Part shown: positions 52,256-60,067 of the stretch, piece by piece
Layout of the letters: every line of letters starts with the position of its first letter
Position numbering within the stretch: position 1 is the first letter of the stretch
Virus record (IMG/VR): IMGVR_UViG_3300025894_001094
Location: 1-60,067 of that record
Source of the DNA: a virus
DNA: 60,067 nucleotides
Reading direction: 5' to 3' (one strand)
Notes under the pieces: generated by a model
The model's database searches: none
The model's input: the letters and a program-made list of their open reading frames with translations, nothing else
What the model was told of the DNA's origin: nothing
Program-made: the position numbers and the translations under genes

Positions 52256-52927
52256 TTAACCTTTTTTCTTTTGACTTTCAATCCACTTTCTGGCATCTTT
52301 CGATTCAGGTGGTTTGTTAGTAAACTTCACTGCGTCTCTATATGCACGAAGTGTTTCTTTCTTGTAGTCTTTGCCGTCAGAGTTATCAACTACAAGGAAA
52401 TTCTTTTTGCCGAAGATGTTCTGCAATAAACCTACGTTTTGTTGGATGGTGTCCCACATCTTTGCTACTTCTTTGTCGGGTAGTGAACGTTCACGATCAC
52501 GGTTGCGTTGCAGTGCAGTGTCTTTGTCAGTGTTTACGAATATCATTGCGACATCGTAACCCATGTTCTTCATCATCTTTGCTTGTTTTGCGACTTTCGC
52601 ATGATCACGACCTGTGCCATCAATGACAAGTCCTAATCGACCTTTGAGATAGAGTTCTTGTTTCTTACCAGTGAGGGTCTTTGCACGACCACGTAGTTCT
52701 TGACCTTTGTCGGAGAAGATGCCTTCGGGATCGAGTGCGATACCTGCTTTCTTCATTGATGCTTCGAATGCGTCATCAGAATTGACAACACGGTACCCAA
52801 GAGCAGGAAGACCCGTCTTACCGGCAATAAATGATTTGCCGCTACCGGGACCACCAGCAAGGAAGATTGCTTTGAAAATTGCGGGATCATTGACCCCTTC
52901 GTCTAGAAATTGTTTAAATCTTAACAT
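52256..52927 (-). CDS. P-loop kinase, zeta-toxin-like (223 aa)
   Basis: Walker A GGPGSGKS at 25-32, then YRVVNSDDAFEASMKKAG, GLVIDGTGRDHAKVAKQA (GTGRD is the Walker B-like/lid region) and NRDRERSLPDKEVAKMW. The layout matches zeta-toxin/polynucleotide-kinase-like ATP-binding proteins common in T4-like marine phages. Residues 1-15 (MLRFKQFLDEGVNDP) are the usual lead. Substrate unknown: a small-molecule or nucleic-acid kinase rather than a proven toxin; no antitoxin is adjacent. Confidence 0.75.
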   Translation of the reverse strand: MLRFKQFLDEGVNDPAIFKAIFLAGGPGSGKSFIAGKTGLPALGYRVVNSDDAFEASMKKAGIALDPEGIFSDKGQELRGRAKTLTGKKQELYLKGRLGLVIDGTGRDHAKVAKQAKMMKNMGYDVAMIFVNTDKDTALQRNRDRERSLPDKEVAKMWDTIQQNVGLLQNIFGKKNFLVVDNSDGKDYKKETLRAYRDAVKFTNKPPESKDARKWIESQKKKG

Positions 52928-53315
52928 GTTTACTGTGTATCTTACACCCTATGAATTCGTTATAATAATCGTCTCTTAATAACACGTCATTTTCAAATTG
53001 AAGTTTTGCTTCGTAGTAAGAACACTCGCCTTTTGAGCGACACAGTCTCAATATCACTCTATTATATAGGCTTTTGCCGCTGGCAACTTGCTCCTTTAAT
53101 AACTCGCTAGAACCATAATAAGTTTTCCAATCGCTCTCTACGAGCGTGTGCTTGCGTCTCTTACGAGATTTGGTGACAGGCAATATCTTTTTCTTCCAAA
53201 AGAACTTCTTACCAATATAACGCTTCCCAGTAGACACCTCTTCAATTTCATACACAAACCCATAACTATCATCTGGTGCATGTTCAAAGGGGTTACCTTC
53301 GTATGACCATGTCAT
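52914..53315 (-). CDS. GIY-YIG-like endonuclease domain protein (133 aa)
   Basis: SYGFVYEIEEVSTGKRYIGK then KFFW matches the first half of a GIY-YIG domain (G-F-V-Y...K-x-Y-I-G-K), and a basic helix with Arg/Lys and Glu in CSYYEAKLQFENDVLL fits the rest. No DNA-binding helix-turn-helix follows, so a freestanding homing role is unproven. It overlaps both neighbours. Confidence 0.6.
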   Translation of the reverse strand: MTWSYEGNPFEHAPDDSYGFVYEIEEVSTGKRYIGKKFFWKKKILPVTKSRKRRKHTLVESDWKTYYGSSELLKEQVASGKSLYNRVILRLCRSKGECSYYEAKLQFENDVLLRDDYYNEFIGCKIHSKHVKI

Positions 53316-53809
53316 ACTATATGAACAACTTCAAACTGTTCACCAGCACCGTAAATTTTACTTTTGAGATTCTCTGTCATCATATTACCGTGCAAAATAA
53401 GAGTGTTTTTCTTAGGAAAAAATCTTGCTTTTCTTCCGAGCATGGTGTATACTGCTGATGCTAATAACTCAGCAAGCATAGTTTGACTGGGTGGTTGGTA
53501 CTGTGTAACATAATCGATGGGAAGATGTTCTAACTTTTTTGACTCTTGCATCATCGAGACGAGTTCTTTGACTATCCATTTGGACTGCTCTGGTGCTTGA
53601 TGTTCATAAAGTGTTGTATAATCAGGTGCTACATCTTGAATTTTTTCCATATATCTTGATAAAATATATTCAAATTGGGTATCAAAATAAGCAACTTGTG
53701 ATAAAACCCTATCGTCGAAACATGCAACTACCATTTTATCTCCCTCGACCAGTATTATATTGGCTTCGTCAGAGGGTCCCGTTTCAACAATCTCTCTCAA
53801 CTTATTCAT
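53312..53809 (-). CDS. Unidentified protein (165 aa)
   Basis: The product begins MNKLREIVETGPSDEANIIL and has a helical middle (YILSRYMEKIQDVAPDYTTL) and a C-terminal IYGAGEQFEVVHIV. No catalytic motif or membrane segment. Four-base overlaps join it to a GIY-YIG-like gene and paralogue D. Function unknown. Confidence 0.5.
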   Translation of the reverse strand: MNKLREIVETGPSDEANIILVEGDKMVVACFDDRVLSQVAYFDTQFEYILSRYMEKIQDVAPDYTTLYEHQAPEQSKWIVKELVSMMQESKKLEHLPIDYVTQYQPPSQTMLAELLASAVYTMLGRKARFFPKKNTLILHGNMMTENLKSKIYGAGEQFEVVHIV

Positions 53810-54789
53810 GGATTTTCGCCTCTCATGTACATGTTAAATTTATCAAAATATATTTTATATTTTTTTTCTAAACGTTCTTTATGTCTAACTTTCCAGTCAG
53901 TTGGAAAATCTTCACGGTATATCCATCTCATTAATGATACACCGTTTGTATCAATTCTCTTGATATTTATCTTGTGTTTTTTTCTTGATAAATGATATAA
54001 ACATTGCCACCATCCGAACTCACCCGGAAGCAACTGTTTATTATCTATAACTTCTTGTATTTTGTTTACGTCCCAAGCACTTCTATGAAACACCATGCAT
54101 ATGTCCGGTATGTGATATCCATTAATCAAACGGTTTCCCCAAAACTGAGCACGTTTCCCTGTTTCTCTTAATCGCCAATAATATTTGCGTCTGTCAGTGG
54201 GAAATAGAAACGTTTGTCCGTGAAAAGACATTCCAAAAACTTTATTAGGATTTTCTATGACTTCGTCAATTAATTCTCTAACATGTCGAGGACTTAAAAT
54301 TAAAGCATCGTAACGTATTACAACGTACACGTCATGTTTTATACCCATTTCACCTAACGTTTTAATAAGATTGTGGGTGCCTATTAATCTCCAATGTACA
54401 TGATCAAATTTTAGTTCTTTTGAAGTAAAAAATTTGTGGGTGGTGTGAAGATGGTTTACCCCTTTTTTTGCAGTTAACCAGTATTCATCTCTCTGTGCTT
54501 CTTCGGTAAATATACGAGGGTAATACTCTGACTCTTGATTTAACAACAGGTATTGATTTGCCAACCATGGTTGAGGATATGCAAACTCTTTCAAAGGTGG
54601 GTCAGCAGTTTTGCGAAATTGCCGCATCCTATTTGTGTCCTCCTTTGTGTTCCAGTATTGATGATAGATTTCATAGGTGTGTTCAGATCCGGTATTTGTA
54701 AACACCATATTATGATTATCCAAAACCTCTGTTAAATTATTCATTTTGGTGTTTGGATTGCCTGTAACTAATACTCCTATCGTTGCCAT
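53806..54789 (-). CDS. RxRYD-family putative glycosyltransferase, paralogue D (327 aa)
   Basis: The longest family member. It begins MATIGVLVTGNPNTKMNNLT; the motif is KHDVYVVIRYDALILSPRHV, then NKVFGMSFHG, DICMVFHRSAWD, GEFGWWQCLYHLSR and TNGVSLMRWIYRE. An extra basic C-terminal tail of about 40 residues (RHKERLEKKYKIYFDKFN) is unique to this copy and may bind membrane. It overlaps paralogue E by 13 bases. Confidence 0.6.
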   Translation of the reverse strand: MATIGVLVTGNPNTKMNNLTEVLDNHNMVFTNTGSEHTYEIYHQYWNTKEDTNRMRQFRKTADPPLKEFAYPQPWLANQYLLLNQESEYYPRIFTEEAQRDEYWLTAKKGVNHLHTTHKFFTSKELKFDHVHWRLIGTHNLIKTLGEMGIKHDVYVVIRYDALILSPRHVRELIDEVIENPNKVFGMSFHGQTFLFPTDRRKYYWRLRETGKRAQFWGNRLINGYHIPDICMVFHRSAWDVNKIQEVIDNKQLLPGEFGWWQCLYHLSRKKHKINIKRIDTNGVSLMRWIYREDFPTDWKVRHKERLEKKYKIYFDKFNMYMRGENP

Positions 54790-55544
54790 CGTTTTAACGT
54801 CACTCCGCCAATATATTTGTGAAAAATTGTATCAATAGAAGATAAATGTCCAAGACATTGACCCCATCCAAATTCCGCACCTATTATATTCTGATCTTTG
54901 CACACGTCTAAAACTTTCTCTATGTTCCATGCACGTCTATTAAAAATTAGGACAAAATCACACAAATATTTATCGCTCATGATCTTAGATTTAAATCTAT
55001 CAATAACATCAAGACGAGTAAGACTTATTTGCGTGTCGTTTGGTGTTCTCCTTGGTGAGTAATTCTGAAACCCATGTACGTTACAAGGTTTTTCTAGGAC
55101 ATTCTCAACATATGGAAGGAAATTTCCCCAATGTACGCAATCATAACGTGTTTTTACATATACCTCATATGATCTATAATGTTCTTCTACCATAGCAATT
55201 GACTGTGCAAATGCATACACACCATAATGACCTGTTTGTGATTTACCTTTGGATTTTGTATATCCCCAATATGTCCATTCATCTGGTTCGTACTCAGGGT
55301 TCCATTGCATCTCTGGAATGTCGGGGTGACAAAACTGTGTTTTTACATATGCGTTATATTCATCAGGAATTGGACTATAAACCACAGGAAAATCATGCGG
55401 GTTTTCACTCAGACGGTGTATGTTCCAAGACTGTAAATATATATCATATTTTTCAGGAGGGAAGGTAGCAATGAGATTAGAGTAATCATGATCCTTTTCG
55501 CTTAATCCACAGACAATTACTGCTGCCTTATTCATTGAAGACAT
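54777..55544 (-). CDS. RxRYD-family putative glycosyltransferase, paralogue E (255 aa)
   Basis: It begins MSSMNKAAVIVCGLSEKDHD; a second ATG at 55535 is possible. The motif is YEVYVKTRYDCVHWGN, then CNVHGFQNY, DFVLIFNRRAWN, AEFGWGQCLGHLSS and IGGVTLKRW. It is most like paralogue D, suggesting a local duplication. It overlaps the degenerate carbamoyltransferase by 13 bases. Confidence 0.6.
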   Translation of the reverse strand: MSSMNKAAVIVCGLSEKDHDYSNLIATFPPEKYDIYLQSWNIHRLSENPHDFPVVYSPIPDEYNAYVKTQFCHPDIPEMQWNPEYEPDEWTYWGYTKSKGKSQTGHYGVYAFAQSIAMVEEHYRSYEVYVKTRYDCVHWGNFLPYVENVLEKPCNVHGFQNYSPRRTPNDTQISLTRLDVIDRFKSKIMSDKYLCDFVLIFNRRAWNIEKVLDVCKDQNIIGAEFGWGQCLGHLSSIDTIFHKYIGGVTLKRWQR

Positions 55545-57106
55545 ATCATGTCCACTTTATCTTCGAACAGTTCTTTTATTTTGGCAACATCAAAAATACG
55601 GTATGGAGTTTTCACATTAATACATGTAATGAAATCATCGTATTCTTTATTTATTGCATGGAGTAAAGAACCTTCCGCAATACTGGTTGATAAGTAAGTC
55701 CTTCCGTCATTACTAATAAGATGTTCCTTTAAAATCTCACGAGCATTATGTTTGAGTGATGGGTAATCTAAACTATCATGTAACAGTTGCATGTCGAAGG
55801 GAGGTTTAATATTGTCTGGAATTTTCTCGGAAGCAAGCATGAACTCTAATTGTTCGTAATCCTCCATACCGGACAGTTCATAGATTTTTGATTTGATATC
55901 AGGGTTTTTCACAACATCACAAAGAAATTTAATATTATATAAGTCGTGAACGAGTACTATTCCTCCGGATCTTATTGTCTCACATATTGCGTCTACATTT
56001 GGTTTTTGTTGTTCCGATGAACGTTTAAACCTTATACCTAATTTCAAAGCAGTGCTAAAAGAATATATCGCATTAGGATCAGGTTCCCATCCCAACTGTA
56101 ATGCCTTCCATAACCCCATGCCGTGAGTAACAGCAGAGTGAGAAAACTCTCTTTGAACCGAAGTATGACACCGTTTGTTACTTAGTTCTTGAAAAGTCTC
56201 TCTTATAATTTTACGGTTGTAGTCACGAGAACCAGTTAGAATTAAATGTCTACCATGCTCCCAAATCGCATCGTGTTCTTGTCGGACCACCTGACGAAAA
56301 TTTTTTGATGTTGCGAGTGACACTGTGTGACAATGAAATTTTTCTTGGTCTGCTGAATAAATTGCTTTTCGTTGAGCAGTAACATTGACATTACTTTTAA
56401 CTGGATTTCTTTGTGCTCTGTAATTATTTTTTTTCCACATTAAATAATCTGGAAGTGCTCTTTGTATGCTATTATAATTACGAACATAGGATTGAACCCA
56501 TTCTCGTGTATCGCTATCTAATGAGTAGGTGTACTGAGCAGCATGTGCTTCAACTTTGTCGATGTAATTAATTGAAAAATCCAGAGTGTCTTGTTCTGGT
56601 AGTATAATATTACTACATGTATGACCAATCCATTTTGTCATACTATTAGGTGATACTCTCCATCTTGGTATCGAGTAGTCTGTTAGTTTATTGTCCAAAA
56701 AACTTGCAGTAGCAAATCGAGACGAATCAATCTCTTCCCCAGCAGATATTACAAAAGCATCCTTTCTCATTTGTGAGTAGAAAGCAGAAAAGGCAAGGGC
56801 AAGATGGTGAGGGATTTCATTAGAAGTTACGATCTCAAAACTACGTAACGATTTGTTTTTATCTAAAAAGGTTTGTATCTCGATTAGACTGAGATCTATT
56901 GAAAACGATCTTCCGTCTGATTTGTTATATTCTTTATATACAACATGGGTCGGGTAACTCCAACCGTTCTTATCGACAAGGTCTTGTAGAATATCATTAT
57001 GCCAGCGATCAGAACGAAGGTCATTCAGTGTGGCATGTCTGCATCTTTCACCGTCAAATTGATTCACACTAGAATAAGGACCATTTGTTATGCTCCAAAT
57101 TATCAT
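55532..57106 (-). CDS. Degenerate NodU/CmcH carbamoyltransferase homologue (524 aa)
   Basis: It aligns end-to-end with the carbamoyltransferase next to it: WSITNGPYSSVNQF against WSLNNGHDSSLNQF, GWSYPTHVV against GWSFPDHFV, EIPHHLALAFSAF against EIPHHAMHALSAY. The catalytic and metal residues are lost: His22 to Pro10, His140 to Leu104, Asp159 to Gly123. The Kae1-type loop CGGGALNVVANQYL is TGSRDYNRKIIRETF, and the GPRALGNRSI block is absent. The frame is intact over 524 codons, so it is kept as a protein. It is likely a pseudoenzyme or regulatory partner, or a changed enzyme. Confidence 0.8.
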   Translation of the reverse strand: MIIWSITNGPYSSVNQFDGERCRHATLNDLRSDRWHNDILQDLVDKNGWSYPTHVVYKEYNKSDGRSFSIDLSLIEIQTFLDKNKSLRSFEIVTSNEIPHHLALAFSAFYSQMRKDAFVISAGEEIDSSRFATASFLDNKLTDYSIPRWRVSPNSMTKWIGHTCSNIILPEQDTLDFSINYIDKVEAHAAQYTYSLDSDTREWVQSYVRNYNSIQRALPDYLMWKKNNYRAQRNPVKSNVNVTAQRKAIYSADQEKFHCHTVSLATSKNFRQVVRQEHDAIWEHGRHLILTGSRDYNRKIIRETFQELSNKRCHTSVQREFSHSAVTHGMGLWKALQLGWEPDPNAIYSFSTALKLGIRFKRSSEQQKPNVDAICETIRSGGIVLVHDLYNIKFLCDVVKNPDIKSKIYELSGMEDYEQLEFMLASEKIPDNIKPPFDMQLLHDSLDYPSLKHNAREILKEHLISNDGRTYLSTSIAEGSLLHAINKEYDDFITCINVKTPYRIFDVAKIKELFEDKVDMICLQ

Positions 57107-57115
57107 AATATATTC

Positions 57116-58921
57116 TTACTTGTATAAATTTAGTTTTCCATCTTCATCTTTATATAGCACGTAATGAAGATCAGTGTGATCCAGAATTTTTAATGCATCT
57201 TCCCAAGTGTTTAAAATGGGATACCCCTGTACATTAAACGAAGTATTCAATAAAACGCTCTTTTCGATGCTCAACAAATCGTAAAGAAAAGGATTTGATT
57301 TTTCAGTAACTGTCTGCAATCGTGCAGTGTTGTCTACGTGAGTAATAGAAGGAAAGGTTTCTCTGTATTCAGGTCTAACATCAACAGTAAATGACATATG
57401 TTCTAGGTTGTCAAATGATCGAGACTCAAAAAACTTAGGAGCATCTTCTAGTCTGCACACCGGAGCAAAAGGACGGTACCATTCTCTATTTTTAATTTTA
57501 GCATTGATACGATCTCTCATATCCGGAAATGATGGGTCACACAATATAGAACGATTGCCCAATGCTCTCGGACCATTCTCTATTTGCCCTTGTATCAGAC
57601 CAATAATTTTTCCTGATTTCAAAATATCAGAAACTTCTTCGATGGTGACGGTTTCCGATTCTCTTTTTTCCATTCCTTTGGTTATAAAATTCAACTGAGA
57701 AAACCTTCTGGGTGGTCTATTGTCCGGATCATATCCCTTCCACCCTCTTTGCATTGCATACCAGCAAGAAAGACCAAAGGACAATCCTGAGTCTCCGGGA
57801 TCTGGTGGTATAAAAATGTTATAATCGGTATTTTCTCTAAGATACTGATTGGCAACCACATTTAAAGCACCGCCACCACATAGCACTAGATTGTTATCAT
57901 GTTCAACAATTTTATCTCTGATATGTTTGCTGGTGAAGTGTTCTAGGGTTGCTTCATTGGTAGCAGTCTGTAAAGCAGAAGCATGCTCTAACTCTTCTTC
58001 TGGTGTAAAGATTTGCTTTCTTTGCTTGCCCATTCTGCCATGCATAACTTTACCATCACCCAAAGCTTTATTAGGATGTAAATGATAGTCACCCTGATCG
58101 CCGTGTTCACCTATGCACCACTTGTCAAAATCCTCAACGCTAAGGATTAATTTTTTGTAATGCTCAACCAATTTTCTATTGGGATTTTGAACAATAGAAC
58201 TGAGACCCATCAGTTTACCAGCATAATCTAGGGTATCGATAGTTTCTGCTATCATTCTATGTGGCGTAATATGATGCGGCAAACAAAAACCTACTTGCCG
58301 AAAGGGTTGTGCACAACCACAAAACGAATCTTCTCTTTTGCTCTGAAAAAATGCAGTTGGGTCAACTAATGCGGGTTCATAGTATTCTACCAACTGATTG
58401 TTTTTGAAACATGATTCCCCATAATAAGTACCGTCTCCCAATCCATCAGTCGAGACTGCAAAAGCATTTTTGAACGGAGAACAGTGGTAAGCACTTAAAG
58501 CATGCATAGCGTGATGAGGTATTTCACCTGCGGTTGCCATATATCCAACCGTGGGTTTCTTTATGTCCCACCTTCTTGCATTTATGGACAACCATTTCCT
58601 CATCACATGAAATATTACTCCATTACCAAAATATGCTGAACTAGAGTTACTGACTGTGGTCTTAGATACAAAATGATCAGGGAAAGACCAACCATGAAAT
58701 CCAATTAAATCGTTTAACCATTTATCTACTTGATCATAGGTTTGAGCTTCGGTGAGATGTCGATCCCAAAAAGCATGTTTCTCATTTTTAATTTTTTCAA
58801 TTTCAACATTACGAGACTCCCCCGTTTCTATGTTGAATTGATTCAATGAGGAATCATGTCCATTATTTAACGACCATACGATTGAACCAACTGTTGGCAA
58901 TCCACGATTTGCATTTTCCAT
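57116..58921 (-). CDS. NodU/CmcH-family O-carbamoyltransferase (601 aa)
   Basis: Full-length family member. The N-terminal Kae1-like domain has His22 in NNGHDSSLNQF, the HxxxH pair His136/His140 in EIPHHAMHALSAY and Asp159 in AVSTDGLGDGTYYGES; NLVLCGGGALNVVANQYLRE and PPDPGDSGLSFGLSCWYA are also intact. The C-terminal YrdC-like block is GQIENGPRALGNRSILCDPS with REWYRPFAPVC. Enzymes of this type transfer carbamoyl from carbamoyl phosphate via carbamoyl-adenylate to hydroxyls of sugars or antibiotics. In this cluster the target is likely a sugar of the glycan. Confidence 0.92.
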   Translation of the reverse strand: MENANRGLPTVGSIVWSLNNGHDSSLNQFNIETGESRNVEIEKIKNEKHAFWDRHLTEAQTYDQVDKWLNDLIGFHGWSFPDHFVSKTTVSNSSSAYFGNGVIFHVMRKWLSINARRWDIKKPTVGYMATAGEIPHHAMHALSAYHCSPFKNAFAVSTDGLGDGTYYGESCFKNNQLVEYYEPALVDPTAFFQSKREDSFCGCAQPFRQVGFCLPHHITPHRMIAETIDTLDYAGKLMGLSSIVQNPNRKLVEHYKKLILSVEDFDKWCIGEHGDQGDYHLHPNKALGDGKVMHGRMGKQRKQIFTPEEELEHASALQTATNEATLEHFTSKHIRDKIVEHDNNLVLCGGGALNVVANQYLRENTDYNIFIPPDPGDSGLSFGLSCWYAMQRGWKGYDPDNRPPRRFSQLNFITKGMEKRESETVTIEEVSDILKSGKIIGLIQGQIENGPRALGNRSILCDPSFPDMRDRINAKIKNREWYRPFAPVCRLEDAPKFFESRSFDNLEHMSFTVDVRPEYRETFPSITHVDNTARLQTVTEKSNPFLYDLLSIEKSVLLNTSFNVQGYPILNTWEDALKILDHTDLHYVLYKDEDGKLNLYK

Positions 58922-59068
58922 TTAATCAGTATCCATTGATTTCCAATGCTCATTAACATCTTCACCACACATGGGGCAAAATATCGGAAGTTCGTCTTCT
59001 TGACTCACTCTGATATTTATCTTAGAATCACAAGAAGGACAATTTAACGAAAAGTCAAAATCCTCCAC
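58922..59068 (-). CDS. Small zinc-ribbon protein with GTG start (48 aa)
   Basis: GTG at 59068 overlaps the nrdJ stop (TAGTG), and the TAA abuts the carbamoyltransferase ATG. Two CxxC pairs (LNCPSCDSKINIRV, PIFCPMCGEDVNEHW) form a rubredoxin/zinc-ribbon knuckle. Its position directly after a ribonucleotide reductase suggests a redox or regulatory link, but it could equally be a small DNA-binding protein. Confidence 0.65.
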   Translation of the reverse strand: MEDFDFSLNCPSCDSKINIRVSQEDELPIFCPMCGEDVNEHWKSMDTD

Positions 59069-60067
59069 TAGACAATCTCGCAATTGCCAGCAGCACATGC
59101 TAGTTCTTGTGAACCGATCGTCATATCACTTGCTTCGTATTCTGCAAGATCTCCCCAATTAATATCTTTTGGCATCTGTGATAACATCTCTTTGTACTCG
59201 CTTTCATCACAATCTTGATAAGGTGCCTGTTTATATGTATGCTCAGAGAAGGGTAAGAACGACACACCGGACATGTAATCAAAGTTAGCATAAACCCAAG
59301 CACCCACTTCCATCCACTCGTTCTCTTTCACAGAGATCGTCACAGATGGTTTGTGTTCACACCAGTGCTTCTGATAGACCAACCACATCTCCAGTTGTTC
59401 AATAGCACTCATGTCCTGACGGAACACAGCACCTTTATCTACCTTGACAGGAAACGAGAACACTGATGTGTGCGAAGGGTTCATCTGATCGTCTTCAACA
59501 GGGAATCCCTTGTCCACCATGAACATCGTCAATGGGTCTTTCTTGTCGCCACGCACTGTACGAATATAATATGGGTTGTGACGCGCATGGATTCCTGACG
59601 CAGCATCAACTAACTGTGACACCGTACCTGATGGTTTGACACAGGTGATAGCAACGCTCTGGTTGATACCGAGTTTCTTTGACATCTCAGCATTGACCTT
59701 GACTGCTTCTGCTTTCAGTTCTTCTAGCAACGAGGGTAGATCACCGATCTTACCGTTGGTGTATTTGTTGTCCATGATACCAGTCATAGACACACCGAGC
59801 AATCGCTCCTCTTCACAGTTCTTCTTCCATCCTTTGGAGATGTATTTGAAGTTTACCAACGAAGACTGGAACGTGCCTAGAATAGTTGCGAGTCGCACTT
59901 TCTCAAGCAACGACTCGCGGGTGTCGCTCGCACGAACCACAACCTCAGAGAGATTACAGAACTCACGCGAGCGAAGAATGATCTCAGAACAAGGGTTGGT
60001 GCCAAACTCATGGTCACCCACCTCGCGTCGACCAGACTTCTCTGCCATCATATTGGCAGACTGACGG
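59068..60067 (-). CDS. nrdJ: Class II (B12-dependent) ribonucleotide reductase, C-terminal part (5' end beyond window)
   Basis: The open frame runs off the right edge; only the C-terminal 330 or so residues are visible. EFGTNPCSEIILRSREFCNL holds the pair Cys408/Cys419 of Lactobacillus leichmannii RTPR, CVKPSGTVSQLVDAASGIHA is the active-site finger loop, and the C-terminal CAAGNCEIV carries the CxxxxC pair of RTPR (731/736). These identify the monomeric adenosylcobalamin enzyme, which makes dNTPs without oxygen or a small subunit. It depends on B12 in the host. Confidence 0.92.
   Translation of the reverse strand, partial: RQSANMMAEKSGRREVGDHEFGTNPCSEIILRSREFCNLSEVVVRASDTRESLLEKVRLATILGTFQSSLVNFKYISKGWKKNCEEERLLGVSMTGIMDNKYTNGKIGDLPSLLEELKAEAVKVNAEMSKKLGINQSVAITCVKPSGTVSQLVDAASGIHARHNPYYIRTVRGDKKDPLTMFMVDKGFPVEDDQMNPSHTSVFSFPVKVDKGAVFRQDMSAIEQLEMWLVYQKHWCEHKPSVTISVKENEWMEVGAWVYANFDYMSGVSFLPFSEHTYKQAPYQDCDESEYKEMLSQMPKDINWGDLAEYEASDMTIGSQELACAAGNCEIV

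Follow-up and report, generated by a model that had tools for sequence, protein, structure and literature searches.

IMG/VR virus record IMGVR_UViG_3300025894_001094, the whole 60,067 bases of which are referred to here as the window, has T4-like baseplate genes together with genes for a gp32-like protein and for a DNA end protector. On its minus strand, nine bases apart and in the same frame, lie two genes that may be co-translated (Table 1). The upstream gene encodes an apparently working carbamoyltransferase (CT) of 601 aa, and the downstream gene a 524-aa protein, here called the twin, which is a degenerate homologue of such enzymes. The occurrence of a CT beside a degenerate twin, first pointed out in a preliminary description made from the sequence alone, is confirmed by the analyses below; the mechanism that we propose for the pair is unproven.

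The 601-aa protein contains Carbam_trans_N (E 1e-12; 48.3 bits, cut-off 24) and Carbam_trans_C (E 6e-53; 179.3 bits, cut-off 27) in that order by Pfam, matches PHROG 1601 with an E value of 1.5e-100, and has VtdB, NovN, TobZ and GdmN as homologues in the PDB. The iron ligands of GdmN are H133, H137, D156 and D333, with H27 acting as the base (PMC9633730). These map to the metal ligands H136, H140, D159 and D377 (a HxxxH motif plus two aspartates) and to the base H22 of the window enzyme, all of which are present, as are E448..GPRALGNRS, K477, R479, R483 and S561 of the YrdC-like part. The catalytic columns of the alignment are in agreement with the preliminary description, which had credited this enzyme with all its metal and Kae1-type residues. 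It is a class III O-carbamoyltransferase, apparently a working one, composed of Kae1-like and YrdC-like domains, in which every catalytic residue checked is present.

The twin is detectably similar to its neighbour by BLASTP (89.4 bits, E 5e-23, 23% identity over 477 columns), and more strongly so to the CT of the sister phage L060 (phmmer E 5e-39). With hmmsearch it scored 73.9 bits on a profile built from eight intact CTs, whilst none of 450 scored shuffled copies exceeded 5.6 bits. It has no significant family match in Pfam or PHROG, hence it would be annotated as 'hypothetical'. An AlphaFold2 model, built from an alignment of the twin with its CT relatives, had a predicted local distance difference test score (pLDDT) of 68 and a predicted template modelling score of 0.71, with strands and helices continuing to the C terminus. 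The top Foldseek ranks for this model were occupied by TobZ (E 3.5e-13), NovN, GdmN and VtdB (down to about 5e-9), and VIA-align matched it to CT structures with Z scores of 16.7-19.6 over 435-473 residues spanning positions 1-524; the comparison with GdmN gave a Z score of 19.6 and a root mean square deviation of 4.6 over 470 residues. Matches to Kae1 and TsaD were below those to CT structures, having Z scores of 13-15 and covering residues 1-340. The twin is a CT homologue by descent, with a two-domain fold predicted over residues 1-524. It had been described as full-length and retaining the order of segments, which is borne out by the coverage of both CT domains in the predicted fold; the twin does not belong to another fold family, a possibility also raised at that time. 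No relative of the twin was found in the bacterial genomes searched, nor a close relative among the phage records of the collection.

Catalytic residues have been lost at 16 of the 20 sites checked in the twin, every one of which is kept by all eight intact CTs compared. The base is replaced by proline (H22P) and three of the four metal ligands are gone (H140L, D159G and D377H), leaving H136, equivalent to H100 of the twin, as the sole ligand retained. The nucleotide loop has changed from GGGALN to GSRDYN, keeping the first glycine and the asparagine, and most of the E..GPRALGNRS block has been deleted or replaced (E448 deleted, R452H, R457I, S458K). Further losses in the YrdC-like part are K477S, R479M, R483E and S561C, and the twin also lacks M509 and R534, present in 8/8 of the intact CTs compared; it does not match the YrdC-like adenylation motif (E..GPRALGNRS, KxREW.RPF, NTSFN). 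The losses listed in the preliminary description (H22, H140, D159, the GGG loop and the GPRALGNRS block) were all found, with the amendments that the first glycine of the loop survives and that the block is largely, not wholly, lost; that list had missed both the change of D377 to histidine and the retention of H136, the first histidine of HxxxH. Simple regular expressions proved too strict for remote CT groups, so only the HH..H column of the motif table was used: amongst the open reading frames (ORFs) of at least 476 aa that match the CT profile and lack at least one motif, every one other than the twin still has HH..H. From these substitutions it is strongly inferred that the twin is almost surely dead in both half-reactions. 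That it still transfers a carbamoyl or related group through altered residues, or takes carbamoyl-adenylate from the CT, is highly improbable: the histidine pair H100 and H101 is kept, together with G292 and N297 of the nucleotide loop, but the base, three metal ligands and the lysine and arginines of the YrdC-like part are gone, and GdmN altered at the base position (H27N) is inactive (PMC9633730).

Despite these losses the frame is open. When a CT gene was allowed to diverge neutrally to 28% identity, it accumulated 28 stops on average in 300 simulated runs and at least 12 in each, compared with none in the twin. In-frame codon usage correlates with that of the rest of the phage at 0.86 and 0.82, the twin and the CT being similarly close. 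A second contig, L001, which is 99.84% identical over 10.1 kb, also carries the twin intact, differing by one synonymous and one conservative nonsynonymous change (R319K); stops, which the preliminary description had suggested looking for in relatives, are found neither in the window nor in this one close relative. Pooled over three degenerate genes, there are five synonymous and four nonsynonymous differences, fewer nonsynonymous changes than expected under neutrality (p about 0.05, assuming 75% nonsynonymous sites). The pattern of retained positions is informative as well. The twin keeps 16 of 63 family-invariant sites (25%), compared with 67/68 and 67/73 in intact CTs (92-98%), while at sites conserved only within the clade it keeps 59 of 166 (36%), intact CTs of the nearest kin keeping about half. 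The clade-only sites are better kept in the N-terminal 200 residues (23/45) than in the YrdC part (17/65; p 0.009). This reflects a selective loss of catalytic positions, and not uniform drift: the constraint imposed by catalysis has gone, whereas others remain and are strongest in the N-terminal lobe.

Selection on the frame of the twin is well supported by these comparisons, and its survival by neutrality at such divergence is very unlikely. Hence the earlier suggestion that selection maintains the gene as a pseudoenzyme is the best-supported reading, given the simulation, the codon usage, the predicted fold and the preferential loss of catalytic sites. The twin might otherwise be what is left of a second, redundant CT, already in decay but still free of stops. 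Redundancy is suggested by the two intact CTs of L067 and L088 and the degenerate genes of L060 and L005 described below, the differences between the twin and L001 are one of each kind, and a gene long functional and only recently decaying would be compatible with the data. However, a divergence to 27% identity that leaves no stop does not fit neutrality (0 of 300 simulations), and both the maintained codon usage and the pooled substitutions argue the other way, making a relic improbable.

Table 1. Features of the carbamoyltransferase (CT) locus in the window and in related phage contigs (L numbers); RNR, ribonucleotide reductase.
Feature	Position	Strand	Basis or remark
Intact class III O-carbamoyltransferase, 601 aa (P0001)	57116..58921	-	ATG start; Pfam, PHROG, PDB homologues, catalytic columns
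Gap of 9 bases, GAATATATT, from CT stop TAA to twin ATG	57107..57115	-	Sequence
Twin, degenerate CT paralogue, 524 aa (P0002), predicted catalytically dead	55532..57106	-	ATG start; homology, residue losses, fold, frame simulation, relative L001
Putative glycosyltransferase, 255 aa (TRYD motif)	54777..55544	-	ORF; function inferred
Putative glycosyltransferase, 327 aa, paralogue of the 255-aa gene	53806..54789	-	ORF; homology E 3e-11
g133, 133 aa, downstream marker of the CT locus	52914..53315	-	Conserved in all sister lineages
RNR, C-terminal part, upstream marker of the CT locus	59068..60066	-	ORF; identified by eye
Tandem intact CTs, 573/578 aa	L067:1410-5003		
Tandem intact CTs, 569/574 aa	L088:970-4552		
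Degenerate CT, 427 aa	L059:1831-3114; L060:2590-3873		Start overlaps stop of intact CT; unrecognised by Pfam
327-aa protein at the CT locus	L005:5065-6048; also L006, L007, L064		Related to the 427-aa protein

The locus has the order RNR, CT or CTs, then g133, and can be recognised by these markers in related phages: RNR is also the upstream neighbour in L005, L006, L060, L067 and L088, and g133 ORFs are found at the equivalent place in L005, L006, L007, L059, L060, L067 and L088. All of the sister lineages read have a second CT, or a degenerate gene derived from one, at this position. In L067 and L088 both CTs are intact; they stand in tandem and diverge from each other. In L059 and L060 an intact CT of 576 aa is directly followed by the gene for the 427-aa protein, which matches its neighbouring CT by BLASTP (E 4e-6) and 20 CTs by hhalign (E 4.5e-7). 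Its score on the CT profile is 39.9 bits, none of the shuffled sequences exceeding 3.2; GNLEIGQGTLGNRGMFF replaces GNIENGPRALGNRSILC in this protein. On this sequence evidence it is clearly a degenerate gene derived from a CT; its structure prediction was uninformative (pLDDT 37). L005, L006 and L007 have an intact CT of 572 aa, of which L007 contains only a part, followed by a glycosyltransferase-like gene and then the sister 327-aa protein. The latter is similar to the 427-aa protein (E 1e-5), and its score on the CT profile, 8.2 bits, is higher than that of any of the 459 scored shuffles. This weaker similarity suggests that it too may be a degenerate derivative of a CT. The best non-self match of a profile made from the 427- and 327-aa proteins is the second CT of L067 (E 8e-8). 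These arrangements imply that some lineages have retained an active second CT at the locus and that in others it has degenerated, such degeneration apparently recurring. Orthology between the twin and the 427- and 327-aa genes was considered and is not supported, as no similarity was detectable, the profile of the latter scoring the twin at the level of shuffled sequences; hence these may represent separate degenerations, or may share an origin from which they have diverged beyond recognition.

In a tree calculated without the 427- and 327-aa genes, the twin falls amongst the CTs of the clade, closest to those of L060 and L005 (support 98/98), although a position as sister to its own neighbour is not rejected (p-value of the approximately unbiased test, p-AU, 0.084). 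Its branch is six times as long as that of the neighbouring CT, at 3.2 compared with 0.53 substitutions per site. A branch of this length with an intact frame, the predicted two-domain fold and a 13-base overlap of the end of the twin with the gene for the 255-aa putative glycosyltransferase could all be accommodated if the twin had been neofunctionalised and had a job independent of the CT, for instance as a sugar- or nucleotide-binding protein working with the downstream glycosyltransferases. This is possible but rather unlikely, as the twin has no family match and, coming from a single population, allows no new conserved motif to be demonstrated.

The reading that we prefer, with a probability of about one half, is that the twin is a dead paralogue that, without being catalytic itself, has been retained to partner or regulate the CT beside it within a surface-glycan cassette. 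A CT of the phage clade would have been duplicated to give the twin, which would then have lost both carbamoyl-adenylate formation in the YrdC-like domain and metal-dependent transfer in the Kae1-like domain, whilst being kept as a folded protein. The active CT would pass the carbamoyl group from carbamoyl phosphate, via carbamoyl-adenylate, to the hydroxyl of a sugar, this acceptor being proposed because of the surrounding glycan genes. The twin would join the CT encoded nine bases upstream in a heteromer, or regulate it, shaping the acceptor site or docking the enzyme to the glycan assembly line. Such a physical partnership would fit with the N-lobe being the best-kept part of the twin and with the position of its gene directly behind that of the active enzyme. 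Class III CTs can dimerise, and the second subunit of GdmN adds a loop to the acceptor pocket (PMC9633730).

Several observations weigh against this reading. The same source reports that TobZ works as a monomer (PMC9633730), hence not every member of the family needs a partner, and the pairs of intact CTs without a dead copy in L067 and L088 mean that phages of the clade can do without a dead partner. The known occurrences of the twin are confined to two near-identical contigs, and in the best tree it is placed closer to the CTs of sister phages than to the one beside it, so it need not be a duplicate of the adjacent gene. Furthermore, as CTs formed the alignment for the fold model, this model is not independent of homology. 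A target in the host, such as a carbamoyltransferase or TsaD-like enzymes for which the twin might serve as a decoy or a poison subunit, might be imagined from the match of its Kae1-like lobe to TsaD and Kae1 structures, but any CT would give such a match; apart from the fold that they have in common, the twin has no particular similarity to TsaB or TsaD, and its gene is coupled to CT and glycan genes of the phage itself, which leaves this quite improbable.

The closest parallel to an active enzyme partnered by the twin would be TsaD-TsaB (YgjD-YeaZ) of threonylcarbamoyladenosine (t6A) synthesis, in which a degenerate paralogue likewise accompanies an active Kae1-family enzyme and the N-lobe is best preserved. 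TsaB is a paralogue of TsaD that has lost the metal and nucleotide sites, and helices of the N-lobe join the two in a heterodimer (PMC9654439). It is small, lacks the YrdC-like domain and is found throughout bacteria, whereas the twin has both domains, belongs to one phage population and is part of a putative complex. Going further, tandem CT pairs may have given rise, possibly more than once, to two-subunit systems of an active and a dead CT, in which the pseudoenzyme subunit sets the acceptor specificity for surface-glycan modification, as the CT counterpart of TsaD-TsaB; we consider this broader proposal unlikely as it stands. The intact-intact and intact-degenerate stages of the sister lineages offer a natural series from an enzyme pair to an enzyme with a non-catalytic subunit. 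The Kae1/TsaD branch has a known pseudoenzyme partner in TsaB; none was found for O-carbamoyltransferases in the open-access papers searched, and to our knowledge none has been described, so a carbamoyltransferase pseudoenzyme would be new. If correct, it would mean that carbamoyltransferases can be heteromeric, and would explain some of the 'hypothetical' genes that adjoin phage CTs and are missed by profiles.

Both window proteins share their domain order and predicted fold with the class III O-carbamoyltransferases TobZ, GdmN, VtdB and NovN (PF02543 and PF16861; PHROG 1601, 'Nol-like carbamoyltransferase'). The twin differs from these in being without the YrdC motif, the base and all but one of the four metal ligands, and it goes undetected by both Pfam models. 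Phage 5-hydroxymethylcytosine (5hmC) DNA carbamoyltransferases belong to the same Pfam families; such DNA-modification CTs co-occur with thymidylate-synthase homologues, other CTs being found near glycosyltransferases (eLife 2021, PMC8670742). Unlike the former, the window CT has glycan genes as neighbours, as in the unmodified contigs of that study, and PF00303 (thymidylate-synthase-like) has no match in the 60-kb record or seven related-phage fragments, all of these being fragments. On grounds of context only, 5hmC carbamoylation is not favoured as the role of the window CT. 'Nol-like carbamoyltransferases' also occur in glycan cassettes of T4-like cyanophages and pelagiphages (Synechococcus phages Bellamy, S-CAM1 and S-SSM7; Pelagibacter phage HTVC008M), whose genomes sometimes carry two or three CT genes; the window differs from these sets in its degenerate twin, no close relative of which was found in the collection.

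The glycan genes near the window pair encode a GT25 protein, an FkbM methyltransferase, a GT8 protein and a HAD plus nucleotidyltransferase protein. A long glycan-related run extends over positions 31349-51519 on the minus strand, including these functions (the last as a fusion) and a radical SAM protein with SPASM. The 255- and 327-aa putative glycosyltransferases next to the twin are homologous to one another and have no Pfam family; P0008, a homologue of the former, adjoins the CT in L005. A 165-aa ORF at 53312-53809 on the minus strand is found where the sister phages have their degenerate CT genes. On account of LILHGNMMTENL, similar by eye, it was considered as a CT remnant; this is unsupported, as its score on the CT profile was reached by 81 of 403 shuffles and that on the 427/327-aa profile by 181 of 387, and it has no significant similarity to the sister degenerate genes or to any family.

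Other arrangements of CT genes were encountered. L008 (7611-10386), and also L095, have a full CT of 555 aa directly followed by a 369-aa CT that is only Kae1-like, with the HHVAH and Asp motif intact and no YrdC-like domain. In L049 and L051 (7977-9673 in each) the enzyme is split into adjacent genes for a 194-aa YrdC-like and a 370-aa Kae1-like protein, reversing the order of the fused form. CTs of 765-839 aa, compared with the usual 550-600 aa, are encoded by L083 (5044-7560; SynMITS9220M01_208), L084 (5995-8292; RAS14) and L085 (5692-7986; XacN1), the extension being unidentified sequence on the N-terminal side in SynMITS9220M01 and on the C-terminal side in RAS14 and XacN1.

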